Source: Isoetes taiwanensis (lineage: Eukaryota; Streptophyta; Lycopodiopsida; Isoetales; Isoetaceae). Taken from it: DNA of 64,000 bases. The DNA lies in the NCBI GenBank assembly GCA_021234155.1, contig JAJEKV010000040.1, forward strand, positions 6,750,438-6,814,437, written 5' to 3'. A program made the position numbers and the translations under genes. Below, in pieces: positions 4,501 to 64,000 of this stretch (position 1 is its first letter; each line of letters starts with the position of its first letter). Under the pieces are notes generated by a model. That model ran no database searches, was not told the DNA's origin, and saw only the letters and a list, made by a program, of their open reading frames with translations.

Positions 4501-4640
4501 TGTTTAAGTAGAATGTTTGATTTGCTATATTGGTAAGAAATGGATCTGTGAAGGTTCTCCTCGTTAGATTTGTCTTTTCTGCTAAACGTAAAGCTTTAAA
4601 TCCATATTAGGTTAAGAAAGAGAAAGTGAAAGAGTCGAAG
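1511..4640. other. Non-coding interval, no supported feature
   Basis: About 3.1 kb of mixed-composition sequence. All open frames are short, and none has a recognisable motif, codon pattern or splice structure. I see no RNA gene or clear repeat. Confidence 0.5.
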
Positions 4641-4678
4641 CTATCACATGAGTTGAAGCATGCCGGTCCCGGATATAG

Positions 4679-5345
4679 TGCTCTCTCTCTTCTTCGTCTT
4701 TCCTCTCTCCTGCTCTCTCCTCTCTCTTCCATCCTTCTTCTCTCTCTTCTCTCTCTCCTCCCATGCTCTCTTCTCTCTCACTATCTTTCTCTCTCTACCT
4801 TTCTCTCTTCTCTCTCCTCTCTTCCTCCCTCTCCTCTCTTCTCTCTCTCCCCTCTCTCCTCTCTCTCCCTCCCCTCTCCTCTCTTTTCTCCCTCTCTCCT
4901 CTCTCCTCTCTCCTCTCCTCTCCTATCTCTCTCCTCTCTCTCTGTTTCTCCCCTCTCTCACATCTCCTATCTCTCTCCCTCTCTATCTCCTATTTCTCTA
5001 TCTCCTATTTCTCTCCTTTCTCTCTCTATTTCTCCTCTCTCTCTACCTTTCTCTCTCTTTTCTATTTCTCTCTCTCCTCTCTCCTCTCTCCTCTCTCTCT
5101 CCTCTCTCCTCTCACCTCTCTCCCTCTCTCCTCCTCTCTCTCTCCCTATCTCTCTATTTCTCCCCTCTCTTATCTCCTGTCTCTCTCCTCTCCTCTGTTT
5201 TCTCTATCTCCTATTTCTCTCCTCTCTCTCTGTTTCTCCCCTCTCTCTACCTTTCTCCACCTCTTTTCTGTTTCTCTCTCTCCTCTTCTCCCTCCTCTCT
5301 CTTCTCTCTCCTCTCTCCTCTCTCCTCTCTTTCTCTCTCTACAAG
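4679..5345 (+). repeat. (CT)n-rich polypyrimidine tract
   Basis: Almost pure CT/CCT/TTCT runs with pyrimidines on the plus strand. Long Ser/Leu/Pro/Phe frames in all three plus frames (and Arg/Glu on minus) are low-complexity translations, not genes. The tract ends directly in a heat-shock-element-like block at 5,351. Confidence 0.95.
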
Positions 5346-5350
5346 CTTCG

Positions 5351-5378
5351 TTTCTAGAACATTCCTGAGGTTCTAGGA
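5351..5378. promoter_or_regulatory. Heat-shock-element-like array at a (CT)n edge
   Basis: Alternating TTC/GAA triplets with 2-base spacing: TTCtaGAAcaTTC, then ctGAggTTCtaGGA. This fits the HSF consensus (nGAAnnTTCn), with one imperfect unit. The same block recurs at the edges of other (CT)n tracts in the window. Confidence 0.55.
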
Positions 5379-5452
5379 TCATCAAGGCTTTAATTAACCA
5401 AAGGAATGTCATTGCCTTGGCCGCTTCAAGCATGGACTTCTTATTATTTTAA

Positions 5453-5689
5453 GAAAGGCGGTTGTCTAGTGGTAAGGGTGGGGGTTTTGAGGCAATGTCG
5501 AGTTCAGAGTAGAACAGTAAACCAAAAAAGTACATCCCAAACTTGGGAGCTTTGAGAGGCCAAGGCCCCAGACTGACCCCGGATCAAGCCACGTGGGCGC
5601 ATCCTTGTCGTCGATGGGGCGTGAAATACTCACTCACTCACTCACTCCTCCTGAGCCAGACTGGCTATTCCTTTTATTATATATTAGAC
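5453..5689 (+). mobile_element. tRNA-like SINE copy 1
   Basis: The head reads 'tctagtggtaaggg', resembling a polymerase III A box, and is followed by 'cgagttcagag' (B-box-like). The body shares 'cccaaacttgggagctttgag', then 'aggccaaggcccc' and 'cacgtgggcgcatcc', with three other copies at 9.05, 9.28 and 11.64 kb. It ends in 'ttttattatatattaga'. The dispersed copies share head and tail, which supports a SINE family. Target-site duplications were not resolved. Confidence 0.65.
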
Positions 5690-5771
5690 TAGGGCCCGGC
5701 CTGGCCCTTTTCTTTACACACCATTCCTCGGCTCATGCCACCGTGACCGCCTGTTGGACCACATTAACACT

Positions 5772-7195
5772 TTCCTGACTTCTCTCTGTATCTCTAATCT
5801 CTCTCCCTCTCTCTCTTCTCTCTATTCTCTCTCCTCTACGCTCCTCTCTCTCTTCTCTCTCTTCTCTTTCTCCTCTCCCTTTTTGCATCTTTTCTCCCTC
5901 TCTTCTCTCTCTCAAACTCTCTTCTCTTTCCTCCCCTTTCTTCTCCTCTTCTCTCTTTTCTCTTTTCTCCCTCTCTCTCCTCTCTCTCTCCTCTCTCTCT
6001 TAAACCCTTCTCCCTTCTCTCTATACACTCTATTCTCTCTTCTCTCTCTTCTCTATCTCCTCCTCCTCTCTTTTCTCTTGCACCCATTCCTCGGCTCAGG
6101 CCCCTCCCGGGCCTGCGCCTCAGTTTGGGCCCACCCGCGATGCCCTTTTCTTTTTGCCCTTCCTGGCTCGACCCCTCCGGGCCTCGCCTCGGCCTCCTCT
6201 CTCTCTTCTTTTTCCCGCCCCTCTCTCTCCCTCTGCTCTCTCTCCTCCCAGCCTCTCTCTTCTTTTTCTTTCCCTCTCTCCTCTCTTTCTCCTCCTCTTT
6301 CTTCTCTTCTCTGTCTTTATCCTCACCCTCTCTTTTCTCCCTCTCTGTCTCCCCAAGTCTCTCTCTCTCTTCTCTTCTCTCCTCTCTCTCTCTCTCCCTT
6401 TTGTTCTTCTTTGTCTCCTATCTCTCTCCTCTCTCGCTATTTCTCCCCTCTCTCTCAATCTTTCTCTCTTTTCTATTCCCCTCTCTCTCTCTCTTCTTCC
6501 TGCTCTCTCTTCTCTCTCCTCTCTCTTCCCTCTCTGCTTTCTGTCTTCTCTCTCTGCTCTTTCCTATCTTTCCCCTCTCTCTCCCTCTCTTCTTTTTAAT
6601 TCCCTCTTCTCGTTTCTCTCTCCTCTCCCTTCCCACTTTCTTCCTTCTCTCCTCTCTCTCTCCTCTCTCCTGCCTCTCTCTCTCCCCTGTCTCTCCCCCT
6701 CTCTCTCTTCCTCTCCTCTCCTCACTTCCCTCTCCCTCTCTTTCTCTCTCTTCTCCCTTTTCTCGCATCTCTTTCCTCCTCTCTCCTCTCTCTTCTCTCA
6801 TCTCTCTCTCTCCTCTCTTCTTCTATCTCTTCTCTCTCTCTCTGCTCTCTCTCTGTCTCCCCTTTTTATCTCCTCTCTTCTCTCTCTCTCCCCTCTCTTC
6901 CTCTCTCTCCTCCTCTCTCCTCTCTCTCTCCTCTTCTCTCCTGCTCCCTCTCCCTCATCTCTCTCTCTCCTCTCTCTTTGTCTCTCCTCTCTCCTTGCTC
7001 TCTCTCTCCTCTCTCTTCCATCCTTCTTCTCTCTTCTCTCTCCTCCTCCTTCTCTCTCTCTCTCTTTCTCTCCCTCTTCCCTCTCTCTTCTCTCTCCTCT
7101 CTCTCATCTCTCTTCTTTCCTCTCTCTCCCCCCTCTCTCTTCCCCTCTTCCCTTTCTCTCTTCTCTCTCCTCCCTCTTCCCTCTTCCCTCCCTCT
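5772..7195 (+). repeat. (CT)n-rich polypyrimidine tract, 1.4 kb
   Basis: Long imperfect CT/CCT/TTCT tract with a short GC-rich interruption near 6,085-6,200 ('ggcccctcccgggcctgcgcc') that resembles the SINE-associated 'gggcccgcc' words near 9,500. Its large open frames are low-complexity artefacts. Confidence 0.95.
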
Positions 7196-7196
7196 C

Positions 7197-7433
7197 GGGT
7201 AAAGATGCTGGGGTGTGTCCTACATTTGGCCAAATGTAAGGGTAAGAGATGTCACACTTCCAAATACATAACCACTTTTGCCTCCCATAATTTGAATATT
7301 AGCGACGTGACTTCGTCCAATAATTCCATACCCCAACCAACTTTAATTAAAAAAAAAACAATAATAGGTGCCCTGCATTGTCCTACATTATCGTAATGTA
7401 AGGGCATTTTAGACACCCTAGCATTCTTTACCC
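7197..7433. mobile_element. MITE with about 20-bp terminal inverted repeats inserted in the CT tract
   Basis: A 237-bp non-CT island starts GGGTAAAGATGCTGGGGTGT and ends with the near-perfect inverse (reading GGGTAAAGAATGCTAGGGTGT from the other strand). Each end also holds an inner palindrome: 'cctacatttggccaaatgtaagg' split as CCTACATTTGG/CCAAATGTAAGG on the left, and CCTACATTATCGTAATGTAAGG on the right. Internal sequence is AT-rich and non-coding. Flanks are CT on both sides, so a target duplication (perhaps CTC) cannot be proven. Structure is seen directly; the superfamily is unassigned. Confidence 0.8.
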
Positions 7434-8160
7434 TCCTCTCTTCCTCTCTCTCTCCTCTCTCTCTCTCTCCTCTCTCCTCTCCTCTCTCCTCTCTCCTCTC
7501 TCTCTCTCTTCCTATCTCTCTCCTCTCTCTCTATTTTTCTCCCCTCTCTCTATCTCCTCTCCTCCTCTCTCCTCTCTCTCTCCCTCCTCTCCTCTCTTGC
7601 TCTCTCCTCCTCCCTCCTCCCTCCCTCCCCTCCTCTCTCTCTCCTATCTCCTCTCTTTCCTGTTTGTCCCTCTCTGTCTGTCTCCCTCTCCTTTCTCTAT
7701 CTCCTATTTCTCTCCTCTCTCTATTTCTCTCCTCTCTTTCTGTCTTTCTCTCTCTTTTCTATTTCTCTCTCTCTCTCTCTCTCCTCTCTCTCTCCTCCCC
7801 TCTCCTCTACTCCTCTCCCCTCTCCCTCTCCCCTCTCCTCTCCTCTCTCCTCTCTCCTCTCTCTCTCTCCTCTCTCTCCCCTCTCTCTCTCTTCTCCCCT
7901 CTCTGTCTCCTATCTCTCTCCTCTCTCTATCTCCTATTTCTCTATCTCCCATTTCTCTCCTCTCTCTCTACATCTCCCTCTCTCTCTACCTTTCTCTCTC
8001 TTTTTCTATTTCTCTCTCTCCCTCCTTTCTCTTCTCTCTCCTCTCTCTGTTTCTTCCCCTCTCTCTACTGCTTTCTCTCTCTTTTCTATTTCTCTCTCTC
8101 CCCTCTTCTCCACCTCCTCTCTCTTCTCTCTCCTCTCTCCTCCTATCTCTTCTCTCTCTA
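7434..8160 (+). repeat. (CT)n-rich polypyrimidine tract
   Basis: Continues the CT tract beyond the MITE, indicating that the MITE landed inside a formerly continuous 2.4-kb tract. Confidence 0.95.
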
Positions 8161-8166
8161 GCTTCG

Positions 8167-8194
8167 TTTCTAGAACATTTCCTGAGAGGTTCGG
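8167..8194. promoter_or_regulatory. Heat-shock-element-like block (degenerate)
   Basis: TTCtaGAAcaTTtcctGAgaggTTC: the same block as at 5,351 with a one-base spacing change. It is again followed by 'atcatcaaaacttcccaattaaccaagg', homologous to sequence after the 5,351 block. Confidence 0.4.
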
Positions 8195-8289
8195 GATCAT
8201 CAAAACTTCCCAATTAACCAAGGAATTTCCCACTTTGCTTGTTGTAACTAAGCATGAGTTCCTATTCTTTTCAAAGAGAAAATGGTTGG

Positions 8290-8790
8290 TCTATCTCTCT
8301 CTCTCCTTCCTCTCTCTTTCTCTCCTCTTCTTTGTCTCCCTCTCTCCCTCTCTCTCTCTCCCTCTTGTCTCTCTTCTCTTTCCTCCCTCTTCTTTCTCTC
8401 TCCTCTCTTCTTTCTCTCTCCTCTCTCTCTCTTTGTCTTTCTCACTCTCTTCTACCTCTTCTTTTGTTTTACCCCTCTCTCTCTCTCTTCTTTTTCCTTT
8501 CTCTCTCCTATCACTCTCTATTCTCTCCTCTCTCTTCTCTCTCCTCTCTCTTCCACTTTCCCCTCTCTCTCTCAGCTCTCCCCTCTCTCTCTCCTCTCTC
8601 CCCTCTCCTCTCTCTTCTTGCACCCCTCTCTCTCCCATGTCTCTTGCCTCTATCTTCTCTCTCTCTTTTTCTCTCTCTCTCTCCCTCTCTCTCTGTCTTC
8701 TATCTCCTCCTCCTCTCTCTCCTCTCTCTTCTCTCTCTTCTCTCTCTCCTCTCTCTTCCCTCTGTCTTTCCTCTCCTCTCTTTTGGCTTT
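8290..8790 (+). repeat. (CT)n-rich polypyrimidine tract
   Basis: Imperfect CT/CCT/TTCT repeat ending at a perfect heat-shock-like block. Confidence 0.95.
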
Positions 8791-8792
8791 TG

Positions 8793-8814
8793 TTCTAGAA
8801 CATTCTAGAAGGTT
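8793..8814. promoter_or_regulatory. Perfect alternating TTC/GAA heat-shock-element-like block
   Basis: TTCtaGAAcaTTCtaGAAggTT shows four complete alternating units with exact 2-base spacing. Trimeric HSF sites need three. No heat-shock gene is adjacent. Confidence 0.6.
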
Positions 8815-8889
8815 GTAGCATTGTGTATGTTTTAAATCACATACATCCCACCTTTAACAATATTGAAATCATTAAATTCTTCAGAACTA

Positions 8890-8966
8890 ATGCTTGGCCT
8901 AGTGGTTGAGGTTTAGGGCTGGGGTGCCACAGCCGAGGGCTCGGTCCCTCCTAAACAAAAAAAAAC
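8890..8966 (+). mobile_element. Short tRNA-like SINE head with A-rich tail
   Basis: 'cttggcctagtggttgagg' (A-box-like) and 'gggctcggtccctcc' (B-box-like) are about 40 bases apart and followed by 'taaacaaaaaaaaac'. The head resembles the other SINEs here but lacks their body. It could be a different small family or a truncated copy. Confidence 0.45.
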
Positions 8967-9048
8967 TTCACACCAAAGCTTTTAATTAAGCAAAGGAATT
9001 TCCATTACCCCAACCTTAACTAAGTATGGACTTCTTATTTTTTCAAGA

Positions 9049-9267
9049 AAGGTGGTTAATTAGTGGTAAGGGTGGGGTTTGAGGCAATGTCCGAGGGTCA
9101 AGTCCGTGAAAATCGCCAAAAAATTTTTGTCCGCAAACTTGGGGAGCTTTGAGGCCCCTGGGCCAGTGGTCATGCCATGAAGCATTACCTGCCTGGGTGA
9201 TGGGCGGAACTCCCGCAGGCAGACTCACGAGACTCACCCAGGCAGCTGTTTCTTTATTATATTAGAT
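9049..9267 (+). mobile_element. tRNA-like SINE copy 2
   Basis: 'tagtggtaagggtggggttt' head, 'gagggtcaagtccgtg' B-box-like region, 'aacttggggagctttgagg' body, and 'tctttattatattagat' tail. It is followed within 10 bases by copy 3, so the two lie head to tail. Confidence 0.65.
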
Positions 9268-9274
9268 TTTCAAG

Positions 9275-9490
9275 AAAAATGGTTGAATCTAGTGGTAAGG
9301 GTGGGGTTTGGGGCTGTCATCGAGTTCAAGTCATGGTAAACCAAAAATTTGTCCACCAAACTTGGGAGCTTTTGAAAGGCCAAGGCCAGACGGCCCGAGA
9401 TCTAACACGTGGCGCGTGCGCGCGTTGTTGGGCGTGACATACGAACTCGCGAGCGGACTCGCGAGGGCGCTGTTTCTTTATTATATTGAG
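9275..9490 (+). mobile_element. tRNA-like SINE copy 3
   Basis: Same head ('ctagtggtaagggtgggg'), body ('accaaacttgggagcttttg', 'aacacgtggcgcgtgcg') and tail ('tttctttattatattgag'). It runs into a GC-rich stretch and then another (CT)n tract. Confidence 0.65.
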
Positions 9491-9569
9491 GCCGAAAGGG
9501 CCCGCCCGCGCCTCTTTGCTCCTCTCGGCTCGGCGGCCTCGGCCCGTACCTTCAGTTTGGGCCCATCCG

Positions 9570-9944
9570 CGTGCTCTATCTCCTCTCTCTTCTCTCTTCT
9601 CTCTTCCCTCATCTTTCTTTCCTCTCTTCTTTCTATCTTCTCTCTCTCTATCTCTCTTGTCTCCTCCTTTGTCTTCCTCTCCTCCTCTCTCCTCTCTCTT
9701 CTCTCTCTCTCCTCTTTCCCCTCTCTCTCCTTCCTCTCTCCTGCTCCTCTCTCCTCTCTCCTCTCTCTCTCTACCCCTTTTTCCCTTCTCTCTCTCTCTT
9801 ATCTCTGTTTCTCCCTCTCTCTACCTTTCTCCTCTTTTTCTATTCCTCTCTCTCCCTCTTCTCCCCTCCTCTCTCTTCCTCTCTCCTCTCCTCTCCTCTC
9901 CTTCTCCCCTCTACTCTTTTCCTCAACTTCTCTCTCTAGCTTCA
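9570..9944 (+). repeat. (CT)n-rich polypyrimidine tract
   Basis: Imperfect CT repeat bounded on the right by a perfect heat-shock-like block. Confidence 0.95.
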
Positions 9945-9969
9945 TTCTAGAACATTCTAGAAGTTTCTA
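9945..9969. promoter_or_regulatory. Perfect five-unit heat-shock-element-like block
   Basis: TTCtaGAAcaTTCtaGAAgtTTC: five alternating triplets, each with 2-base spacing and no mismatch. This is the best single match in the window to an HSF binding site. It is embedded between (CT)n tracts. Confidence 0.65.
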
Positions 9970-9974
9970 TCTAT

Positions 9975-9990
9975 CTTTCTCTTCTCTTTC

Positions 9991-10037
<47 letters not shown>

Positions 10038-10113
10038 CACCTCTCTCCTTCTCTCCTCTCTCTTTCCCTCTTTTTCCATCTCTCCTATCTCTGTCTCCTG
10101 CCTGACTGCTCCT

Positions 10114-10169
<56 letters not shown>

Positions 10170-10425
10170 TCTTTCCTCTCATCTCTCTTCTCTCTTCTCT
10201 CCCCCTCTCTCTCCTCCTCCTCTCTCTCCCTTCTCTCTCTCTCTATCTTTCTCTCTCCTCTCTATTTCTCTCTCTCTCTCTCTCTCCTCTCTCCTCTCTC
10301 CTCTCTCTCTCCTATCTCTCTCTCCTCTCTCTATTTCTCCCCTATCTATCTCCTATCTCTCTCCTCTCTCTCTATCTCCTCATTTCTCCTGTCTTCCCAT
10401 TTCCTCCTCTCCTTTCTCTCCTCTA
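9975..10425 (+). repeat. (CT)n tract including long pure CT runs
   Basis: Contains nearly pure (CT)n near 9,998-10,031 and 10,120-10,165, then imperfect CT/TATCT repeat. It ends at 'tttttgggagacagtaccagaggttctaggatcatga', which retains the right half of the heat-shock-like block. Confidence 0.95.
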
Positions 10426-10499
10426 CATCTTTTTGGGAGACAGTACCAGAGGTTCTAGGATCATGAAGAGGAGGATTGAGATGTTCAGCACCATAACAT

Positions 10500-10832
10500 T
10501 CTTTTCCTCTTTCCTCTCTCCTCTCTCTCTATTTTCTCCCTCTCCTGTCTCCTCTCTCTCTTCTATCTCTTTCTTGTATCTCTCTCTGCCTCTCCTCTCT
10601 TCTCTCTCTCCTTTCTCCTCTCTCTCTCCTCCTATCTCTCTCCTCTCTCTCTATTTCTCTCTGTCCCATCTCCTATCTCTCCTCCTCTCTATCTCCTATT
10701 TCTCTATCTCTTATTTCTCTCCTCTCTCTCTCTATTTCTCCTCTCTCTCTACCTTTCTCTCTCTTTTCTATTTCTCCTCTCTCCTCTTCTCCTCCTCTCT
10801 TCTCTCTCCTCTCCCTCCTCTCCTCTTCCTCT
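10500..10832 (+). repeat. (CT)n-rich polypyrimidine tract
   Basis: Imperfect CT/CCT/TATCT repeat, last of the series; ends at the heat-shock-like block at 10,841. Confidence 0.95.
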
Positions 10833-10840
10833 CCTTTTGA

Positions 10841-10864
10841 GAACATTCCTAGAAGGTTCTAGGA
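10841..10864. promoter_or_regulatory. Heat-shock-element-like block
   Basis: GAAcaTTCctaGAAggTTCtaGGA: four units, one spacer of three bases. Followed by 'ccatcagagaggatg', as other copies are followed by 'atcatcaa'. Confidence 0.5.
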
Positions 10865-10904
10865 CCATCAGAGAGGATGAATGTTTACATTGGAAAGTTT
10901 CAAA

Positions 10905-34329: not shown

Positions 34330-34998
34330 TTAACGATAAATATTGTTTTGGAAGAAAGTATCGAACTTAAAGGAGGACTTAACTACGTGGACCTGTTAGT
34401 TGACCGGATGATTCGTTGAATCAACATCCCAGGCCGGAACAAAAAATAAGCCATCCACAAAAATCGGCAGGGGGAGAAAGCACGATAACAACAGCCAGAT
34501 TTGAAACGGAGTGTTGCACAACTCCCCGCTTCAAAGATTCCCTCAAAAACATGGCATCCTCCTCCTTAAATGAACTTTTGGCCGAAGTCAAAGGATTTTG
34601 AGAGCTTAAATTTTTTTTTTTTTCTTGCTTTTTAACCTCTCGGCAAGTGTACATTTACATTTGATGAAATATCATAGCCTAAAAAGAGCAAAATTCTGTT
34701 GACTTTGCAATCCATGAAATGAAGACAACAAAAACATCTTAGTTTAAATGAACTAATAATAGTACATGAATTAGAAATTTTAAATACATCATTTTTTTAA
34801 GGCAAAATTAATTTTAACACTAGAATAATCTGGTTGATTTCTTGGTGGAAAAGGGCCAAATTTACTGTTGATTGTGTAGTGTAGACAAGCAAGACTAAAA
34901 AATAGGAAAATTGATGGGAATAAATAATATTAAAATGAATAAATATTTTAATATCGGTTTTAAAAGATACCAATCTGAAAAATATTTCTCACAAGGAG

Positions 34999-37900
34999 TC
35001 AAAGATCAACCGTAGTCCTCCCATGGTGTGTGCTTGTAGTTGCAACATCTTCCTTCGGGCTTCTCTTTCTCGGTGATTTAGCTTTTTGGTTGGTAGTGTT
35101 GTCTTCGCTTCCACTACTAGAGCCACTTCCTTTCATTTCGACCAAAAAAGTGACCTCATCCTCGTGGATTTGGTAAAAGGAGAATTTGTATTTAGGAAGA
35201 TGTCATTTTGGCAAAGTCGGATGAGGATTTGGCACCTAGCTCTTGATTCTCGTGTGGTAAGCTAGTAGTGCGCTAATCTCATCTTAATAAAATTCACGGC
35301 CTCCTTGTCTACATCCACCTTTGCTACGCGGTTCGGCCTTTTTAAGTCGCAGGCAATGGTTGTACGGCAGAAAGCATCAAGTATCCGGTCTCCTTGGCGT
35401 GAAAACATGTCAATAAGTTGGTTGATTAATTCTCGGGGCTTTTGATAGTGATTGACAATTATCCCCAAATAAGCTTGGGTCTTGCGGCTTACGCAACCAC
35501 AATTGGAAACTCTAACACATTAGAAAAATCGAGCATCCGGGCGTGTTGAAGTGCTCCATTGTTCTTTTGTTCAAGCTCCAAAGAGGGCCACATGAAGATA
35601 TTCCACTTTGCTTAACAATCTAGGGCCTCCAAAGATGATAAGTCATATTAGTTTTGTACCTTTATGAGAGAAGTGTAGTTAGCAATCTAGCAATTAACAA
35701 ATAAATTTACTATTCGAATAGCAAAAAGAAAGAAGTATTCCGAATAAGTTCTTACCGGACCAAATTCTCATAGCCGACTTGGCGCGGGGGATCCAAAATG
35801 ATTCTTGAAGCTTCGCTTCCACCATCCCTTGCATGCTAGAGTGGAACACCACCACCTCCAATGCTTAGCTGTTGTTATTTGTTTTAGACCATCAATAAAG
35901 GCATTGAACTCGAGTTCCTAAAAGGTAGGTCGTCATGCTTACTGTCCTTGATCTTAAACCCGTAAGGTATATCGGCAATGATCAGGGTAAAATTGCGGGG
36001 CTTAATGCTTTCCACCAACTTAGTGCGTCACCTTGAACAACGAGAAAACAAATTATCGATCGAATAATGTAAACTTTTCAAACTTCGGGACGGTTCAACC
36101 AGACAACCGCCTTATACATACCAAGGTTCTTTCCTCACGCAGCAAGCTTTAGCGAGGTGCATAAAACCTTCGGGGAAGGTCTTTGTTTTTCTTCTTGTTA
36201 CGCTTTTGCAAATGAAGTTAAGTTGTGTAAAATAGTTTGACACAAAAGAAGGTCAAAGAGGTAAAGCATTATACCTATCCTTCAAAATTAGGAGCATATT
36301 GTACAATACGCTCGTCTGAAGTTGCCAGAGGGTACAGCTCCTTACACCTTTCCCAGGTTTCTACGTTTAACTGCTCCATCAAGCATGTTTGGCATGCAAT
36401 GGCGTTTTTGGTCGACAAGCGAGAAAATATGAAGCACATTACTTATTCCGAATACAAAGCGGATAAAAGGAATCGAAAATGTATAAAGCCACAAGACATG
36501 AACGCTTACTTATGCAGTTCTTTTGACATCTCTTCTAAGGAAAACTCCTTGTCCACTACTTTTTGGAGTAACATTTCTAAGATTGTTGTGTCCGTGAAAA
36601 CCCCGTGACTCCCTCCAAATTTGTGATAGTCATTTCTTTTTTGGCACGCTGCATTGCCTTTTTTTTCTCTGTTTTGCTTTACCTTTGCTCTTTAATTCCC
36701 CTCTTTCAAATTTGTGAATATTTCGTTTTTTGCGGGTCCCATATCTGACAAAAAAACAACATATTGTAAGTTACATTGGAGAAAATCTTTTAAAAATGAG
36801 ATACCATAAACATGAAACAAAGGCCAGAGTGTATTCCATAATACACTTGACCCGGTTTACCGAGACCAAAGTATATTACGGAATACACTTTGTACCTATG
36901 TCCTGAAGGCCAAAGTGTATTAGGAATACACTTTGGCGACACTAATCTTGCGAGGGCTATTCGAATCTGGATGTTTACACCCTGCCATCCACGAAGGCCG
37001 GTTTGAAACCAATTGTAGGTGGCTGATCAAAGAGTGCCTCTTGTTGGCTTCATCATACTTTTAGGCAAACACTCTATTGTGCGCCTCCTTAAGCTCAATG
37101 ATGGCTTTGGCTTCTTAAGATCTTCTCCATATTTTTTCTTTAAATATTAGGTACTCTCGTGCATGAATCTAATTTTGTCGACAAAACTCATTTTGAGTTT
37201 GTACTCATTATCTGCATTTGTGTGTGTTGGCCACTATTTTAGCCTCTTCATCGGTTGGGGCCACAATACCTTTGCCTGCGGAGGGACGAGGAAAGGTATC
37301 TTGGATTTTCTTTTCTTTAAAAAGTTGCCTCTCGAAGCTTTGAAGCTATGGTTTCCACCTGACACATAATGTGTGTAATGATCGCATTCTCTCTGTCATA
37401 ATTTGCTTGGGTCCATGCACCGGCTACGTCGACAAGAACAACTATTGGAGCAACATGTGCATTTGGGTTACTCCTTATCCTGTCTTTTAAATTTCTGACG
37501 TGATCCGCATAAATTTTTCTCACCTGCAGTGGTCTCTCTCCTGTCTCATCTTTAGGTGGCAGCTTCATGCAGGTGACATGAAGATAAATTACTCCTTGAA
37601 CATATCTATTTTTATTAATTTCTTCCATCCGTTCAGCCGTCTTGTCTATTTTTTTTTCTTTTATTGCAACCCCTGGGGCCTTGGCCTTCCCTTTTGTTTT
37701 TTTCCCTGTTGCCTGGGGTGCATCTTCAATGGCAAGAACCGCGGTCTTTCTTTTCTTGGGCTCCTTAGCAGCCACAATTTGTCTTTGCTTCTTTGATGGT
37801 GGTGGTGGAGGTTCTTCAGGTTCGGACTCAGCCGAATTTATATTGTCCTCATCACTCCCAGGTTCCTCCTCCTCATCATCTCCACCTTCTTCTGCTTCAG

Positions 37901-38365
37901 AAGCACTGTAGTCCAGTGCTTCACTTCTGCTGCTTGAAACCGTCCTAATGATGGTTGACAATGCCTGCTTATTTATATAGTGGGCAATGTATTTGTAAAG
38001 CCGTGTAGGATGCACGTTTGAAAGCTTAAAGAATGCTACATCAAGAACAAAGTAGCCTTGTGAAGTCTTAACTGAAAGTCTTGCTTGTTTGCTTTCTGCC
38101 CGGTTCTTTGGCTCCGCGTCTTTGTATGGATCCCATGCAGCTTCTAAACTCTTGTCGTGACCGTTTTTGCCGAGGACTCACGACGCATATATAGGAAAGT
38201 GACATTCTTTGTACTTTCCTGCAAAACTCTAAATCCGCATTACCACTGCGTTTGAAAATTCTCGTACACTTGTATCGCTTGATGGTCTCTTGGTCTTTTT
38301 TGGTGGCGTTTTCTTTGTGGTGATTTTGATGCTTTGTTTATGTTTTTGGATCCCATGTTCTGGCG
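34999..38365 (-). CDS. ParB-like / DNA N-methyltransferase (beta class) protein, multi-exon
   Basis: The probable start at 38,365 (MGSKNINKAS) leads, after a shift, to 'KTPPKKTKRPSSDTSVREF' and 'SLEAAWDPYKDAEPKNRAE'. Next come an acidic region (EEGGDDEEEEPGSDED), a basic one (KKTKGKAKAPG) and a ParB-N-like segment 'VRKIYADHVRNLKDRI' ... 'VAPIVVLVDV' (about 37,520-37,430). Further exons hold 'TILEMLLQKVVDKEFSLEEM' (36,590) and 'EQLNVETWERCKELYPLATS' (36,360). The catalytic part has 'FTLIIADIPYGFKIKDS' (motif IV, about 35,995-35,945), 'VVVFHSSMQ', then 'QKPRELINQLIDMFS', 'GDRILDAFC.TTIACDLKR' (motif I) and 'VDVDKEAVNFIKMRL'. The order IV then I is that of beta-class N6-adenine/N4-cytosine enzymes. 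A Lys/Arg tail 'KAKSPRKRSPKED' ends at 34,999. Introns and an NLS-like tail indicate a eukaryotic gene. Several single-base shifts are present. Confidence 0.68.
36822..36937. repeat. Palindrome cluster 1 (AAGTGTATTCCGAATACACTT-type), three copies
   Basis: Three near-palindromes at about 36,822-36,851, 36,864-36,894 and 36,908-36,937, each built as (ggcca)aagtgtatt..aatacactt(tggc). They lie between methyltransferase exons, probably in an intron. The shared arms suggest hairpins or a dyad protein-binding site. Confidence 0.85.
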
Positions 38366-38509
38366 CAACAAGCGAGTAACAAAGCTGTTTTAGTTAAAGC
38401 AAAGTAAACTAGAAAGTCTATTCGGAATAAAAACATCTACATTTTCTTTGCTAAAGCGGCAAAATGCACTAAATTTAATATTTTTGTAGCAAAACTAGTT
38501 TGATTTAAA

Positions 38510-38694
38510 GGCCAAAGTGTATTCGAATACACTTTGGCCTACGCTTTTAGGCCAAAGTGTATTCGAATACACTTTTTTTGCTACACTTTTTGTTGATGAA
38601 GGCCAAAGTGTATTTTGAATACACTGTTTTGTTCAAAGTGTATTCGGAATACACCCGGCCTTGGAAGGAGGCCAAAGTGTATTCGAATACACCG
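38510..38694. repeat. Palindrome cluster 2, five copies upstream of the methyltransferase gene
   Basis: Copies at about 38,510-38,539 (perfect: ggccaaagtgtattcgaata/cactttggcc), 38,550-38,577, 38,601-38,626, 38,633-38,655 and 38,670-38,694. The cluster starts about 145 bp upstream of the inferred methyltransferase start at 38,365. Weaker words (tattccggaata) continue to 39,010. Confidence 0.9.
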
Positions 38695-39059
38695 ACCTCA
38701 AAGTGTGCCCGAAACCACATTTCACATTTCTAGAATCAGCCCGTACATTGTACTTTTTCCCTTACCTCTCCATCTTTGCGTGCTATGTAAAAGCGGAATA
38801 AGGTCGGCGAAAGTTTTTGAAGGCCTAAATCGGGGCTGAGAGCAATTCGGAATACGAATGAGGTGCCACAAATTTCCTTTTTAAAGGTCTATTTCAGACA
38901 CATGTTCATTTCTATGTATACCGGAATACGTTTGGTTCAAAATGTGTACTAACTTGTATTCCGGAATAGCAGACTTCTCCTTGCCTTGACACTTTGTATT
39001 CTCGAATAGCAAACGTGCAAAAGTTGCTTCCATTATCTCTTCTAGTTGAAGTGTTTGAA

Positions 39060-42000
39060 GATGGTTAATCGCATCCGAGCGGACTTCCACCACCTTTTGT
39101 GGCACCGAGTTCCTCTACCGGAGGAAAACCCAATGAGCATGTGTTTTTGCCTGGTGCCCAGGATTCCTCATCTCCTGCCTCTACAACATCCTTGTTACTC
39201 CTTGAAGATTCTCCAAGTCCATCACATAGTAGACTGCCACCACCTTTCCAACCCTCCCCGAGCCCTTTCAAGTGTAGGTTGCCTCCTCCCTTTGTTCCAT
39301 CTCCACTGCATACGGTGGGCTACCACCTCCTTTTTACCATCACCGAAGCCTATAAAAGATCTTATAAGAGCGGCCGACTTAAATATATTAAAAAATACAA
39401 AAACAAATGAAGCCCCAATTTTTTAGCTAAACTATTTGTAGCAGGAACAAGTACAACTATTTGTAACCGAACAAGTACAAAGAATGTGAAATTCTCCATG
39501 ACTTTTCTCACCATGACTTGTGCACAAATGAAACGCATTTGTTTCGGCAATGTAGGGTCCCCACCTCCTCCCATAAATGTTGTGACACGGGTTTGCGAGA
39601 ATTTCAAGCGGCAATAAGAGCAATGTTTGACACGACACCTAGCCAACACAATCAAGCAACATCATCCTATGGCCCATCACCTACATTTAACACTTTGTCC
39701 CTCGAATTTTTCGGGATGCTGTGTCCGCGTGGTTTATTTTCCTCGAGAAACACACCACTAAGAGAAGAGGAGGTCACTCCTAGAGTGGAACTCTCATCGA
39801 GGATGAAGACCGACAAAAGGAACAACGAGATTATATGTTCTCTAACCAATCTTCAAAGAAATTCAAAGTAGATTTCAGCTTGAGAGCATGTTCTTAGTAA
39901 GAAAAAGAAATCGATGGACGAAAGCGAAAATGAGAAAAATTCTCGAGCTACATCTTTGTTATTTGGGATGCATTAGCAAATTCAACATGGCTAAACTTCG
40001 TGCAATTAGAGACCATTCACGGTTCTATGACAATTTGAGCGAATGCCTACTTGGCTTATCATGTAAGACCGAGGCAGGCACAACTTCTTGCACTATATCA
40101 ATCGGCAAGAAGTGTGTCAAAAATGCTTCATGGTGGTTACTTGCTTTGGGTTCCTCGAGAATGTCTCGAATACATAAAAGATTAGACAAAAACCCTTGCA
40201 TTGATGACCTTTGTGGGCTGGAAGAATTGTAACAATGCATGCCCTAGCTGGCGTGGCATGGATGGAGAAATACTTGAGCGTGTGAAAAATTGCCAAACAG
40301 CAATATGTATCACTTGACAGATAACATCACAAAAAAAGATGTTTTCAAAGAATACAAAGAGACATGCAGTCAATCTCAGCATATCTCTTATTCACATTTC
40401 ACTAGATTGTGGAAAACTGAATTTGGCCTTGTAAAAAATTCCTCGAAGACCTGAGAAATAATACGTGTGCTCAATGTGTCTAAAGCGAAGAGTCAAAAGC
40501 GCAAGGACCGATTTCGAAAAAAAGTAAGTTTAAGTTCTTCATTTCGTACTTGCATCATGTAATTGTTTTGACTGCTTCCTTCAACAGACATTTGCAGCGA
40601 AGCTTGCTAGACACCGTGACCAACAAGCGGTGAGAGAAGGAAGCTTGCTAAGCATAGGAAAAAAAGCTCTTGGCGTCTACTTGAGTACATGTCCGTTGTG
40701 ATTAATGGAATGGATCGAAAAAGGCGACTCTACCTCATTTCTTGAATATTCCAAAGATGTGCGGAAGAATGCTTTGTCAAGGTCCACCTCGTTGGGGCCA
40801 TGGTCTTCAATGGGAGTCTAAGGTGCAAAGTCTTTTTAACATATCCTAATTTGCATGGTGATCCAAATCTCACAATTACAATTCTTAACAAGGTTCTTTG
40901 TGAGCAGCAGCGGTTACCACCCGCTCTCTACGCAACTTGACAACACTACCGGGGAGAACAAAATCAAACACTCTTTGCTTATCGTGCCATGCTAGTGGAG
41001 CTGGAGATTTTAGAAAAATAAAAGCTCAGTTCTTACTAGTAGGGCATACACCACGATCAAATAGATCGGATGTTCGCCAGATTTTCGGTCGTCTCGAGGA
41101 AGAAAAAAGCTTTTTTGTCTTCCCACTTTGGTTCATATCATTGAAGACTCTTACACTCCCATGCCGGTAGTTGAGCTTCTAAAAGGAGGACGCAGACTTG
41201 GGGAATTTGTTTTCTCTCAGCGTGCAAGCGAGAGAACAAAGGCGTGAACAAGCTAAATGACATTACGTTTCAACATAAAAATCAAATTCTACTTGAAGAA
41301 TGGAGAGAGCCTTTTTTGGGGAAAAAGTACACTACAACTAAAGAGTGGAGTCGGGTAGAGGGATTGCGGCTTCCTTAAATCTGATCCGGACACTAGTTCC
41401 ATGGAGCGTCTTTGAGCAACTTCCTCTAAAAATCCAAAAAGTGTCAAAGCGAAAAAGAGTACCCCAGTCACTTCCTTGAAATCCATTGAAAATGGAATTT
41501 CCGCGGGTTTTAAGTACTTCTTGAACAAGATCAAATATGGTGGAGAGGCTTCTTTCTAGAACAAAAAGACTGTGATTGAACCTAGCTGGTAAGGCGGTTG
41601 CAAGAACCTTTTAAGTGGCCTAATGCTTCCCACCAACCACGAGGAACCAGGCAGGTCAAAGCATTGCTGCGAGAGCAGTACTGATCTGAGGAAGATGAGG
41701 GACGGGTCATGTACCTCGGTCCAAGGCGAGAATGAGCCTACGGGTAATGTCACGAAATTACCAAAGGTATGTTGATTGCTCTTCCGACCGAGGAGGATGA
41801 CAAGGGGAGACCTTTTGGATAGCCAAAGTACTTGACACAATCAAAGAGGAAGGCTGGTGACTAAACTCAAGATTCATTGGCTTGCTACGTTCGAGGAAAA
41901 TGCTTTTGAAGGTAGGTATGAGCTAGAAATGAGAAGTCAAAGAAAAGGGCAAAAAGCCAAGAAAGTTGGATGCGGGGGATGAGCTAGACTTATGACAAGT

Positions 42001-42188
42001 GAGTATTACGTGCTATGATTTCAAATTGAAATCGGACAATCGTTCGCCAGAGAACAATCAACTTGCTTAAGAAGGCTTGTAACTCTGAAGAAGAAGATGA
42101 AGAAGAGGTTGGGAATGCTTCACCATCCGTTGATAGTGATGAGGAAGATAACTCAAGCACTTCCTCAAGTGACAGTGAAAAGAAGTGA
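39060..42188 (+). CDS. DUF7869-type transposase-like protein, at least two exons, frame-broken
   Basis: An early Cys/His-containing part reads 'TISIGKKCVKNASWWLLALG' and 'SSRMSRIHKRL' (40,100-40,190). 'HISYSHFTRLWKTEFGLVK' is followed by a Cys pair 'CAQCV' (40,380-40,480). An intron (40,524-40,587; gtaagt...caacag) precedes 'TFAAKLARHRDQQAVREG' and 'VINGMDRKRLYL'. The core has 'DPNLTITILNKVL', 'PPALY' with 'QLDNTTGENK' in the next frame, 'AMLVELEIL', and 'AQFLLVGHT' followed by 'IDRMFARFSVVSRKK' (40,860-41,110). Later parts are 'LLEEWREPFLGKKYTTTKEW', 'GRPFWIAKVLDTIKEEGW' (41,800) and an acidic tail 'CNSEEEDEEEVGNASPSVDS' ending at 42,188. The LQLDN..ENK ... VGHTHEDIDQ pattern defines DUF7869 proteins, thought to be DDE-like transposases. 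Many shifts are present, so it is probably inactive as written. Confidence 0.72.
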
Positions 42189-42599
42189 AACCGGCGATGA
42201 TGGCATAAACGACCCACTTAAGATGTCTTGGATCCTCTCTTATCACTCCTCACACTTTTGCACATAATCGAAGTCTTAGGAAAAAAAGAAATAAATTTTG
42301 AATGTGAATATGAAGATTTTATCTTCAATTTTGAAAATACTACTATTTCGGCGTAAACTTCACTTCGATTTTTTGGTCAAAATTTGTGTTCTCTTAAATT
42401 AGAGGTTTACTCCAAAAAGACAATTCGCAAATTATAATTCCAAAAAAGTGTCACTTTCACATAGACAATTCTGTTTGGAGAAAAAAATTGGTGATTTTGG
42501 GGGTCAAATTACATTTTTTGCCTCTTTTTTTTACCACCTCATTTTAGCCATTTTTGCAAAAATAGGGAATTTTAAGGAATATTCCTTTTGCTCCCGCTT

Positions 42600-42890
42600 T
42601 CAATGATTTGCCCCGCTTCAAATGCAATCTTGTTGTATATGTCTTGAGTTTTCGAACTTCCCTGCACCATCTCGAATATGTTAAGCAAATACCTCAAACG
42701 GTGTGAAGATTTTGAAACTCATCCTCACGCCTCCGTTTTGAGACATTCCCGCTTGCACCTCGTCAACCATGCATTTCTTCATTGCAATTACATTGTTCTC
42801 ATTAGTCCGCGGGCTTACAAAGTTCACTTAAGGGGCAATTCAAGCGGCCTCAAGCTCGGTTTCCCGACCTTTACGTTATAATCATGTCCG
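42600..42890 (-). CDS. Possible minus-strand exon, unknown
   Basis: Minus frame includes 'ENNVIAMKKCMVDEVQAGMS' and 'GGVRMSFKIFTPFEVFA', helical and coding-like, with a bordered element about 200 bp upstream at 43,085. This repeats the layout of the 28-33 kb genes. No ATG or splice site confirmed. Confidence 0.25.
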
Positions 42891-45423: not shown

Positions 45424-45953
45424 AAATATGATATAATATAAGATTTTTTTTGAAATATAAGATAAGGAGATGGAGCGAATCCAGGTAAGTGAGCACTCCC
45501 CTGTTTGCCAGAGCACACAGCTTGACTCCCAAATAAGTCAAACACAGAACCAGCAAAAGGAATTTATTCCCTCAACACAAGAAAGCCCTACCTCTTCTAG
45601 CTGATTGTGATTTTGTCCAATCTACCTACCAAAATACTGAAAAAGAGAGTATTGAGTATGGCCCAAGTAAGCACAACCTAACCTTGACACCATGGACAAC
45701 CTTGACCAGAGTCAAACAGATCTAATTGTGCCTGATTCAGAGGAAGACATGAGTATCAGTCCCTCCCTTACATGATATCTCCAATACATCTCTTAGATCT
45801 TTAAAGAGGAAAATGAAAAGTAGGACCATAACCAAGTCCCCTGGGAGCACTGAGAATCCTCACACTTATAACACTAGAAGTAAAGCCTCACCTCATGGTC
45901 TCAGAAGACTTAACTATTAAACTCCTCCCAGGTTTTCTCTCACATCTTCCTTC

Positions 45954-46690
45954 ATGAGGATCTTAACCTGGAATTTGAGGGGTATCAAAGGCCCCATCAA
46001 AAGGAAACGGTTTATTGCCACTGTGAGAGATTTCAGGGCAGATATCATTATGATTCAAGAACATAGACTCCCCAAATTTGACTCAGCAAATCTGGGTGAG
46101 TGGATTCGTCCTGGGATGGCTTCCTGCTATATCCCAGCTAATGGCACCAAAGGGGGGATTGCTACCTTTTGGTACAACTAGAAATTAATTAGTACCTATA
46201 TCAGCCCTTCCAACAGATGGCTTTGTGTCACCCTCCAAATTAAGGACTGCCAAGTTGCCTTCATAAATATTTATGCTTCAACTGACCCCCATGAAAGAGA
46301 GCCCATGTGGCATGAAATCAACAACTGGATGAGCCAGCATCAGCATATTGAGAACTGGGTGATTACTGGAGACTTCAATAACACCCCTCATAGTGATATG
46401 AAACTTGGCAAGAAAATCAACATGTCCACTAATGAGAGATATTCCTGGGACAAATGGATGTCCAGCCAAGACCTTATCTATGTCCCATCTTCAAACACCA
46501 AATTCTCCTGGAGCAATAAGAGAAAGGGTGACCAGAGGACATTTTGCATGTTAGAAAGATTCTATATTCATAATTCTGCCAGCTGGTTAGACAATTGCAT
46601 TGTTACTGGAGATATTGCTAGCACCATCTCAGATCACCAACCACACTTCCTTGACACTAAAGATTTGAAAGTTGGCCCTAGAAGCAAGAA
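45954..46690 (+). pseudogene. LINE copy B endonuclease domain
   Basis: 'MRILTWNLRGIKGPIKRK' has the WN motif. 'IIMIQEHRL' supplies the catalytic Glu, 'ITGDFNNTPH' the GDFN motif and 'STISDHQPHFL' the SDH motif (46,630). A TAG after 'GGIATFWYN' (46,181) splits the domain; the next block opens at 46,305. All key residues are readable, so loss of function is by frame only. Confidence 0.88.
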
Positions 46691-48455
46691 CACTCCATTC
46701 AAGTTTAACACATCTTTGCTCCAAATGAAGTCTTTCTGTCAAGATTTTACCTCTTTCTACCTCTCTCTGCCCAAGATTGGCCAACACCAATCCATGAAAT
46801 GCTTCAATGACAAAATGCAGAAAGTCAAAAATTGGGTGAAGCAATGGGGTAGAGACCTTGCTCAGAAAAGGAAAGCTATAATGTCCAGCCTGTTGCAACA
46901 AATCAAAAATATCAGATCTGATCTTGAAAACAATCCTAAGGATGACTCTCTTCACTTGAGAGAGGAACAATTAGAAATACAGATCAAAGCTCTTGAAGAA
47001 CACCAGGGTAAGGGGATGGCCCTTAGGAGTAAAGTTAAGATGTACAATCAATTGGACCATGAGAGCTCTAAAATGTTCTTCAAAATTGCTAGGAACAGGT
47101 TGGTTAACAACTCCATTACTCAGCTGAAATCTGATCAAGGATTCACCCTTATAGATGAAAAGGAAATTGCCTCAGCCTTCCTCAATTTCTACACTAATCT
47201 TTTTAAGGACGAGTTGATAGAAGATAGTAAAATTCAGGAAATTTTTTATATTGTTGGCCCCCCTAATGAAGTGATGGATGATGACTGGATAGAAGTTCCT
47301 GAACTTCCTGAAATCTTTGAAACTCTTAAGAAAATGAAGCATGGGAAGAGTCCTGGTATAGATGGCTTTCAGCCTGAATTCTTGTGGAATTCTGGCCTAT
47401 TATGAAGGAGGACATTATCCAATTTGTTCAAGGGGTTTGGAGAGCCAGCACTATTTATCCCACTTTCAATGTTGGGGTCATCTCTCTCATCCCTAAGACT
47501 GAATCCCCTTCTAAAACCAATGAATGGCGCCCTATCTCCTTGACTACTACTTTGTACAAACTTGTGGCTAAAATTATAGCTGGTAGAATTTTGGTTCACC
47601 TCCATGAAAAAGTGAATGCTTGCCAATCTGCCTTTCTGCCCAGTAGATCCATTCTGGATAACTATATAGCTGCAAATGAGGCTTTGCACTGGAATAGATT
47701 GACCAAACAAAATTGCATCCTCCTCAAGCTGGACTTCAGAAGGGCTTATGATTGCATCTCATGGAAATTCTTAGAGAAAGCACTGGTCCATATTGGCATC
47801 CATCCTGCCCTTACTAAGCTCATTATGGGATTAAACCAAAAAGCCACTTCATGTGATTGTCAATGGAACTCCCACTGGTTTTTTCCACATTCAAAGAGGG
47901 GTGAGACAAGGGTGCCCCTTGGCCCCCTACCTCTTCATAATTGCTGCAGAAATTCTTACCAGGATGGTCCTCTCATACCAAGATAAGGGTCTGTTCCAAG
48001 GCCTTCAAATACCTGATTCTAATAAACAACTCTCCATTCTTCAATATGCTGATGATACTTTTACCATGCTCAAAGCTGATAATGATAAAATAAACAATTT
48101 TATGGACTGTATCTCTAAATTCAGTGCTGCCTCTGGTATCCACCTGAACTATGCCAAATGTTCTATTCTAGCTGATGGCTCTTACCCAGACCTTAACACA
48201 CATGGCATCAAATTTGTTCCCAATGGTCAATACCTGACTCTTTTAGGCCTCCCCCTTGCAGTTCATATGTCTCATAAGATAGCTTGGCAGCCTCTGATTA
48301 ATAGGATCAGGAAAAAGCTTATCCTCCTTAAAGGTTCCTTGTCTCTGGCTGGGAGGATCTTGATTGCCAATTCTGTGCTTGCAAGTAGCCATGTCTACTT
48401 TTCTTCTGCTTTGATTGCTGACAAAGCTTCCTATAGCAAAATTGAGCAGTATTAA
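46690..48455 (+). pseudogene. LINE copy B reverse transcriptase domain
   Basis: In order: 'MKHGKSPGIDGFQPEFLW' (47,340), 'VISLIPKTESPSKTNEWRPI' (47,480-47,535), 'KLDFRRAYDCISWKFLEKAL' (47,735), 'GVRQGCPLAPYLFIIAAEIL' (47,900) and 'ILQYADDTFTMLKAD' (48,040; catalytic YADD). A stop at 47,405 and a shift near 47,860 break the frame. A hydrophobic linker precedes the domain. High similarity to functional L1 RTs implies a young insertion. Confidence 0.92.
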
Positions 48456-49758
48456 AGAGTATATTTGGCAAGGTACCCACCTATCTGCTTGGGATCAGCT
48501 GACTCACAGTAAAAAGTTAGGGGGTCTGGGATGTAAATCCTTATTTCTCCGGCCCAAGTGCTTGGGGGCAAAAATGTGTGGAAAGCCATCTCGGTTTCCA
48601 ATCTCTCGCTATGGATTTTATCAGGGTTCGTTTAATAAGAGTAAACCCCTAGGAAGTCCCTCCCTTAAACATCAGCTCCCAGATTCTGCTTTCTATGAGT
48701 TTAAATGTGCAGCTAATACTTCTCCTCTCATCAGGAGTATCTTTAAAGCTTGGGAGAAAGTGGCTGTAAACTTTACTCATGACAAATTGTCTAATTCAGT
48801 GAGGGACACTTCCATATTTTGGTCTCCTGTGATGGCCCCATCCTCCTTCTCTGCTATGGCTATCTGTCACCCCACATGTTACAAAAAAATGGCACTCTGC
48901 CAATATCCTGCATGTCAGGGACCTCATTGATGATAAGGAGAATTGGATTCCCTGGGAAGTGATTAAGAAGAAAGTAGGAGGGGGTGCTACTCATAGGTCG
49001 ATATATAAGAATGTTGTGCTGACCTATTCCCCTTTCTTAGGCAAAGATGGTAAGGGGAGAGTCACTCCCCCCTGAACTGGTTCTTCAAAGTCAAAAGGAG
49101 CTATAAAGTTTCTAAGATTTACCATGCATGTCTTCCTCAGAAAAGCAGAAAACATGCCTCTCTCCAGGGCCTATCCTCCAAGAATTTCAAGAAGACTCTT
49201 CAATCCAGTTGGAAATCCTATGCCTGCCCTAAGATAAAAGTGTTTTCTTGGCTTATCTTGCATAGTGCTATCCTCAGTAACACTAACATGATCAAGAGAA
49301 ACTTTAAGTCCGTCACATAGTGCTCTGCCGCTTTTTGTAGTCATCATGATGAATACATGCTACACATTTTCACTTGCCAAACGATTCAGGACTTTTGGAG
49401 ATGGTTGACTCGGTCAGGCCTGAAAATCCCTGATCTTGATTCCATAACTAGTATTTCTCAATTCTTCCAGCTCCAGAATTCCAATGTCAATTGTACAGTT
49501 CTACAATTAGCCTTGTGGATTGTTTGGAAGCATAGAAATAATGTGGCTCTGGCAAACAGGAAGTGTGACCTTAACTGGATGAAGCTCAATTTCCAATTTG
49601 AACTTGTTAGATGTGCTATGGCTCATAAGGCCCTAAAATTGGAGAAGTTTGATGTGGATTGGCTGAATTGGGGATCCTTCAAGTCTAATTTCTTTACTGT
49701 TCATTCGACTCTCACGATTCACTTGAATGCCTTTGTGGATTGCGACCTTTTTGAGTGA
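48456..49758 (+). pseudogene. LINE copy B ORF2 C-terminal region (zf-RVT-like)
   Basis: 'YIWQGTHLSAWDQLTHSKKL' continues the RT C-terminus. 'KIKVFSWLILHSAILSNTNM' with 'CSAAFCSHHDEYMLHIFTC' and 'QDFWRWL' (49,230-49,400) is the zinc-knuckle-like module, and 'WIVWKHRNNVALANRK' (49,515) is the usual terminal motif. Several frames. Confidence 0.75.
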
Positions 49759-63249: not shown

Positions 63250-64000
63250 TTGAGCCTATTTCAACTTCGAAGTCAAACCCACCTATGATCTTCATGGACC
63301 AACCGAGGAATTGCCATGAGCCGAGTACTAAAAAGAAGGAGAGTAATCTCTCAGCTTAGAGAATACAATGCAGACATCCTTCTTCTTCAAGGACTTAGGG
63401 TCCCAAGCTTTGAGTGTTCCAATTTAGCTGATTGGATTGCTCTAGGTTACTCTTCCATATGGATTGAGGCCACTAATACGTCTGAAATATTTCATATCAT
63501 CTGGAAAAGTCTGAACCAAAGGAGCTCTTTTTTGGTGCCATTAACATATATGCATCTTCTGAGTCTAAGACTAGAGAGACAACTTGGCCACAAATCAATA
63601 GGTGGCTTGATAGCCAGTAATTTGAGGCATGGATTATGACAGGTGATTTTAACAACACGCCATCCTGAGAATTAAAAGTTAAGAAATAGTTAAATATGTC
63701 TAGAGCAGAGAGATCTAGCTGGGATTCTTTATTGGATAATCATGTGTTTCACTATATTCCACCTTCAACTGCAAAATTCATATGGTCAAATATAGATTGC
63801 TTGGATTCTTGAAGCAGCTTCACAATGACATCTGAAATCTTTGCAGTTAACCCACTAACATGGTTTGTTTAATACTGAAGCATTATGATATTTGCAAAGG
63901 CAACAAACTTTTTACAATTTTCAGCAACCCAACTTTCTTATCTCACAACAAATGGATGAGTCTAAGAGAGGTTTCCCTAAGATTAGAGACCTAGAAATTG
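63250..64000 (+). mobile_element. LINE copy C, 5' part of ORF2 (endonuclease), cut by the window end
   Basis: 'MSRVLKRRRVISQLREYNAD' and 'ILLLQGLRVPSFECSNLADW' align with copy B ('KRKRFIATVRDFRAD', 'QEHRLPKFDSANLGEW'). The catalytic Glu position reads QGLR here (Gly instead of Glu). 'MTGDFNNTPS' follows near 63,637, then a stop, then 'SWDSLLDNHVFHYIPPST' near 63,720. Older and more damaged than copy B. Confidence 0.8.

Follow-up and report, generated by a model that had tools for sequence, protein, structure and literature searches.

Does the stretch of Isoetes taiwanensis DNA analysed here (64,000 nucleotides, hereafter the window) contain a gene for a bacterial-type DNA methyltransferase, and does such a gene belong to a mobile element? 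A first-pass annotation had proposed an intron-bearing gene in which a ParB-like domain is fused to an amino-methyltransferase, acquired by a plant transposon. For the transposon family as a whole this proposal holds, and the family does have a spliced gene, but the copy in the window is a pseudogene. The reading to which we lean is that the window carries a dead member of a family of terminal inverted repeat (TIR) DNA transposons, in which a DUF7869 protein is the probable transposase and a ParB-N-like/beta-class amino-methyltransferase is cargo that would help the element.

The copy in the window and its family

The interval originally annotated covered the methyltransferase gene, but the element is larger, extending from 34487 to 42634. 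Its termini, read from the sequence, are AACA...TGTT, and the blocks that can be aligned to complete relatives are 68-76% identical. It consists of the following parts:

34487..42634, minus strand (methyltransferase gene minus, transposase plus): decayed whole transposon copy, aligned to four complete relatives
34487..34545, plus strand: TIR and subterminal palindrome at the methyltransferase end, aligned to the end of a relative
35118..35661, minus strand: exon F, whose motif I (LDAFC.TT) is broken (tblastn of relatives; Pfam)
35758..36192, minus strand: exon E with motif IV ADIPYG and in-frame stops (tblastn of relatives)
36278..36418, minus strand: exon D, stop-free in the window copy (the query was the window copy itself; relatives match at 52-91%)
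36509..36744, minus strand: remains of exon C (tblastn of relatives)
36831..36935, no strand: GTAT..ATAC-type palindrome array, lying between what is left of exons B and C
36991..37643, minus strand: ParB-N-like region of exon AB, broken (tblastn of relatives, two of which match phrog_1033 ParB)
37968..38302, minus strand: remains of the N-terminal part of exon AB (tblastn of relatives)
38519..38700, no strand: palindrome array GTATTCGAATAC, in the stretch separating the two divergent genes
39084..40370, plus strand: N-terminal part of the transposase gene with LPPPF..SP repeats, decayed
40706..41469, plus strand: transposase core (DUF7869 region), decayed; a relative matches PF25273 at 1.1e-52
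41488..42268, plus strand: C-terminal part of the transposase gene, decayed
42605..42634, minus strand: TIR at the transposase end, aligned to the end of a relative

The sequence features named in the first-pass annotation are all present: motif I LDAFC.TT in the ORF at 35262-35519 (minus strand), motif IV ADIPYG in a different frame near 35.97 kb, and an acidic/basic stretch together with the ParB-N-like segment QVRKIYADHVRNLKDRI within the ORF at 37317-38177 (minus strand). The gene that contains them is decayed by stops and frameshifts, and its motif I lacks GSG. Stops occur in the tblastn alignments of five of the six exon queries; the exon D query had been taken from the window itself and is thus uninformative on this point. 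A functional methyltransferase gene in the window was rejected on the basis of the stops and the loss of motif I: this copy cannot encode an enzyme. The Pfam check proposed at the outset did not refute the proposal: relatives match N6_N4_Mtase (PF01555) significantly, at 1.5e-17 for the final exon from a copy in better condition and at 6.3e-18 in a second, divergent subfamily. The ORF in the window scores 23.6 bits (5.8e-5), below the curated 26.7.

The genome was searched over 1,658,258,908 bases in 1110 contigs, and 20 copies were fetched, with missing flank added for four of these. The four complete relatives align from end to end over 7.5-8.4 kb and are bounded by perfect 4-bp target duplications (ATAT, CATT, CTAA and TGTG), and a representative of a divergent subfamily (L035, 9466 bp) has CTAC on both sides. 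Both ends were located in six elements, and five of these have perfect duplications; the window copy is the exception, its flanking 4-mers being CGAT and GTAT. Elements of the family measure 7.5-9.5 kb, and their inverted repeats of about 25 bp start with AACA and can be aligned across 18-25 bp in four elements. TIRs combined with a target duplication of fixed length are among the features of a cut-and-paste DNA transposon. Exact motif I was found at 597 genome sites, motif IV at 918 and the transposase motif at 709, while the reversed-pattern controls gave 0 in each case. Near-identical copies (dS 0.01-0.02) at different places indicate recent movement. The family, with its TIRs and 4-bp target duplications, is an old one that has been mobile of late, and the window copy is a dead member of it. 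Sola-type and other transposons with 4-bp duplications share this combination with TIRs (for Sola2, see PMC3627910); membership of the Sola superfamily was considered from the 4-bp duplication and is not claimed.

A domain of bacterial type in a plant assembly brings to mind bacterial contamination or an assembly artefact, which the first-pass annotation had listed as a danger to its own reading. The copies compared share GT-AG introns, the motifs occur at hundreds of places, the target duplications are clean, the fetched copies lie on contigs of 4.8-53 Mb, and a close relative was not found in phage, plasmid, viral or GTDB collections. Because of the introns, contig sizes, target duplications and copy number we reject this explanation, to which we assign a negligible probability.

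Several other observations were made in passing. On the plus strand, positions 4601-10900 of the window form a 6.3-kb pyrimidine-rich tract (C 40%, T 41%), whose long Ser/Leu-rich ORFs are probably spurious. Just past the transposon, at 45921-49758, there are LINE-type remains with matches to Exo_endo_phos endonuclease and reverse transcriptase, and an ORF at 63289-63639, which has no Pfam match, resembles the start of another LINE-type element. Elsewhere in the assembly, besides the 475-residue plant-type rbcL on contig C840, there is another full-length reading frame for rbcL that differs from it (L040, G000:C1052:5415903-5416829).

The methyltransferase gene and its ParB-N-like part

In the family the gene runs from exon AB (N-terminal region, acidic/basic linker and ParB-like part) through exons C and D to exon E with motif IV and exon F with motif I. 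The beta-class order read from the window is borne out, motif IV (AD[LI]PYG) preceding motif I (DAFSGSGTT). So is the presence of introns: GT..AG splice ends are common to the non-window copies compared, namely to 5, 5, 5 and 7 copies at the four junctions, and in three pairwise comparisons 11 of the 12 introns were less identical than every exon of the same pair. The best profile matches of the methyltransferase part are DNA methyltransferases (PF01555, CcrM and phrog_67). A genome search with PF01555 gave 1443 first-look candidates, and all 150 that were scored exceeded the cut-off. The significant profile match and the conserved motif order place the family protein in the beta class, the motifs being broken in the window copy.

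The exons are under purifying selection. Median omega was 0.032 for exon F (12 copies, 66 pairs, 14 measurable), 0.070 for exon E (9 copies, 36 pairs, 6 measurable) and 0.084 for exon C (8 copies, 28 pairs, 9 measurable), and the one measurable pair among 15 of exon B (6 copies) gave 0.23, where measurable means 0.1<dS<1.5, a range outside which most pairs fall, and where the copies had been picked for open frames, a choice that lowers omega. Protein identity within the main subfamily is 0.90-1.00 for exon F, 0.79-0.98 for E, 0.79-0.94 for C and 0.89-0.95 for B, at pS values that are often 0.6 or more, so that many pairs are close to saturation at silent sites; between subfamilies the exons are 0.39-0.66 identical at the protein level. 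Two very close pairs of exon E had relaxed omega (0.38 and 0.76), as expected for decay after insertion.

Motif IV of amino-methyltransferases is usually DPPY, and its first residue is D in adenine-N6 enzymes and S in cytosine-N4 enzymes. The D in the first position here suggests adenine-N6 rather than cytosine-N4 as the target, in a motif that is itself atypical. The departure of D[LI]PY from the usual form, together with the degenerate ParB box described below, would also fit a methyltransferase fold retained for binding, or for modification of RNA or protein instead of DNA. This we consider improbable, given that the best profile matches are DNA methyltransferases and that the residues of both motifs do not vary in the alignments of 13 and 9 rows with open frames.

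The assignment of the ParB-like part stands on PHROG and pairwise matches, but Pfam ParBc gave no match in the relatives. Two copies from different subfamilies matched phrog_1033 (ParB), L023 at 7e-5 and L013 at 4e-6, while L035 and L024 did not; TIGR03764 matched at 0.0054, and the PDB profile search found no ParB, PDB searches giving nothing useful. Against a plasmid ParB the identity is 28% over three boxes (9e-8, a value from a single pairwise comparison with a partner picked by an earlier search). In this alignment GGERRWRA of the plasmid protein, which we take to be the GERR-type box with arginine, lies opposite GGTHSYKA. We call the domain ParB-N-like because the arginines of this box are replaced, by H-S, despite the match to a ParB profile. 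For the same reason nuclease or CTPase activity of the ParB type appears doubtful, and the domain probably acts as a DNA-binding or clamp module. In the genome the ParB exon gave 3007 first-look candidates, and 150 of the 150 scored were below 1e-70. Among plasmids, tblastn found nine records at E 0.1-4, eight of which are annotated as ParB-type partition or Noc proteins, matches that are suggestive only. Among phages, the ParB part of L023 found nothing and that of L013 only two AAA+ proteins (E 2-3).

The DUF7869 gene and the palindrome arrays

The transposase-like gene of the window (plus strand, 39084-42268) is divergent from the methyltransferase gene. Its relatives match DUF7869 (PF25273) at 1.1e-52 and 2.5e-54, all 150 scored of 9902 first-look genome candidates were above the cut-off, and D and E residues are invariant in an alignment of three DUF7869 rows. 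This protein is probably the transposase of the family; our literature search found no paper naming DUF7869. The N-terminus contains LPPPF..SP or IPPPMQ.TP repeats in both subfamilies (L029/L009 and L035; 39084-39308 in the window).

The two genes are linked far beyond chance expectation. In the lists of the best 150 matches, 24 methyltransferase-DUF7869 pairs lie within 15 kb (0.4 expected), 22 of them upstream and divergent, and 18 ParB-DUF7869 pairs lie within 10 kb (0.27 expected), 17 of them upstream and divergent. An unranked sample, contigs C1-C888, contained 76 transposase sites: 27 had a methyltransferase motif at 7 kb or less, upstream and divergent in every case, and 49 were without an intact methyltransferase motif within that distance. 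In the same contigs motif IV lies 0.3-1.5 kb upstream of motif I at 28 of 45 motif I sites.

Both the region between the two genes and the methyltransferase gene itself contain palindrome arrays. The arms GTAT/ATAC are constant and the six-base core goes with the subfamily (TCCGGA, GAATTC or AAATTT). In the TCCGGA subfamily the intragenic array occupies the C/D intron, in the GAATTC subfamily the B/C intron; for the AAATTT type, coordinates on contig C4 place two groups of sites around the ParB exon, one on the promoter side and one downstream. Sites of the ATTCYGGAAT type number 54 in 32 kb of the four complete elements versus 0 in 47 kb of flank, and the window copy has one, with GTATTCGAATAC and variants instead. 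The 20 fetched copies together contain 175 sites, most often spaced at 42 bp (39 cases) or 41 bp (20 cases), which corresponds to four helical turns. Genome-wide, the palindrome 24-mer was counted 1474 times (control 0). L013 and L035 contain five GTATGAATTCATAC each, plus variants that include one AAATTT core each; the genome count for this sequence is 64, against 11. GTATAAATTTATAC, present five times in L036, occurs 12,556 times (control 17), often spaced by about 30-33 bp or double that among the matches listed. As these sites far outnumber the intact gene motifs, many are probably in non-autonomous or dead copies.

What reads the palindromes? The idea that they occur only in methyltransferase-bearing elements had to be rejected, since L036 has palindromes and no methyltransferase was recognisable in the 9.9 kb read. 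The same locus has a DUF7869 gene, so the transposase may be the reader. In other plant transposons the transposase, or a repressor derived from it, binds to subterminal repeats. The palindromes could be sites of this kind, and the ParB-methyltransferase would then have a different target, such as the ends of the element or host DNA. The arrays between the genes, a position that suggests autoregulation, would suit either product, but the recurrence of arrays inside the methyltransferase gene is odd for a transposase site, and the case without methyltransferase is one element, L036. We regard this explanation as a tentative one that deserves some weight.

It is also conceivable that the enzyme, by amino-methylating the DNA of the element, blocks 5mC of the host or the proteins that read this mark, a role that has been proposed for methyltransferases of other transposons. 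The strong conservation fits a benefit for the element. In an unrestricted count of GTAT-core-ATAC the commonest cores besides TCCGGA were TCCAGA and TCTGGA, which are the products expected of 5mC deamination at the central CG; the host may therefore methylate the palindromes. The same decay would mean, however, that any protection is incomplete, and the proportion of perfect sites (68 of 175) comes from a counting pattern that admits only TCCGGA/TCCAGA/TCTGGA-type variants. Anti-silencing as the function of the enzyme seems to us somewhat unlikely.

The ends with their target duplications, the order of the genes and their splice sites, the copy number, the palindrome arrays and purifying selection are observed, and the two divergent genes share a promoter region. 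On the preferred reading of methyltransferase cargo on a TIR transposon, the palindromes of the element would be bound by the fusion protein or by the transposase, and the enzyme would methylate an exocyclic amino group, more likely of adenine, on element DNA. The mark may help the element by tuning its own promoter, by timing transposition after replication or by resisting host silencing. A more specific version, in which each ParB-methyltransferase recognises and modifies the palindrome arrays of its own subfamily and specificity evolves, we rate as unlikely.

Relation to known systems and meaning

Both transposon-borne methyltransferases and ParB-methylase fusions are already known. The former comprise Dam-like enzymes in DIRS elements and DNMTs in dinoflagellate and charophyte retrotransposons, copies of the Klebsormidium enzyme being under purifying selection with Ka/Ks below 0.2 (available text of PMC5890265), and methyltransferases in virus-borne Mariner elements (available text of PMC3627910). 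The Isoetes family resembles them as a selfish element with its own DNA methyltransferase, but it differs in being of the TIR type with DUF7869 and in the spliced, divergent, bacterial-type amino-methyltransferase fused to a ParB-like domain. ParB-methylase fusions occur in phages and bacterial mobile DNA, and a nicking ParB-methylase comes from Bacillus (available text of PMC5512222). These also combine a ParB/Srx domain and a methylase in one protein of mobile DNA; unlike them, the Isoetes protein has eukaryotic introns and an arginine-less ParB box, and its methyltransferase is 23-44% identical to phage and plasmid proteins among the matches listed (for phages, 20 and 40 of 631 records). 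Three phage proteins considered as ParB-methylases (L037, L038 and L039) were rejected, the ParB domain being absent in Pfam, and tblastn and pattern scans of the phage, plasmid, viral and GTDB collections found no close viral or bacterial donor.

Bacterial-type amino-methyltransferase genes are also present in other eukaryotes. Rotifer N4CMT, taken from bacteria, and the Marchantia 4mC enzyme are described as acquired host genes (available text of PMC8885841; cited in PMC12344493), whereas the Isoetes enzyme is transposon cargo with motif IV D[LI]PYG at 918 places. The portion of PMC12695648 on eukaryotic 6mA that was available has nothing on transposon-borne enzymes. Our literature search did not find the combination of transposon and ParB-methyltransferase, and an earlier account in Iyer 2016 (eukaryotic adenine methylation) or Walker 2025 (Marchantia 4mC) is possible.

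DNA methylation in land plants is seen mainly as 5mC written by the host. About 900 places with intact motif IV, in a sequence conserved until silent sites approach saturation, imply that methylating DNA pays off for this element. Methyltransferase-bearing transposons are stated in the available text of PMC6338049 to be absent from land plants such as tracheophytes, and the Isoetes family contradicts this published absence. From the subfamily cores one can predict the sites that each enzyme would read, and an active, sequence-specific eukaryotic amino-methyltransferase would serve as a tool. If self-marking is true, it would let the subfamilies separate self from non-self DNA in the nucleus of a vascular plant, in the manner of restriction-modification systems.
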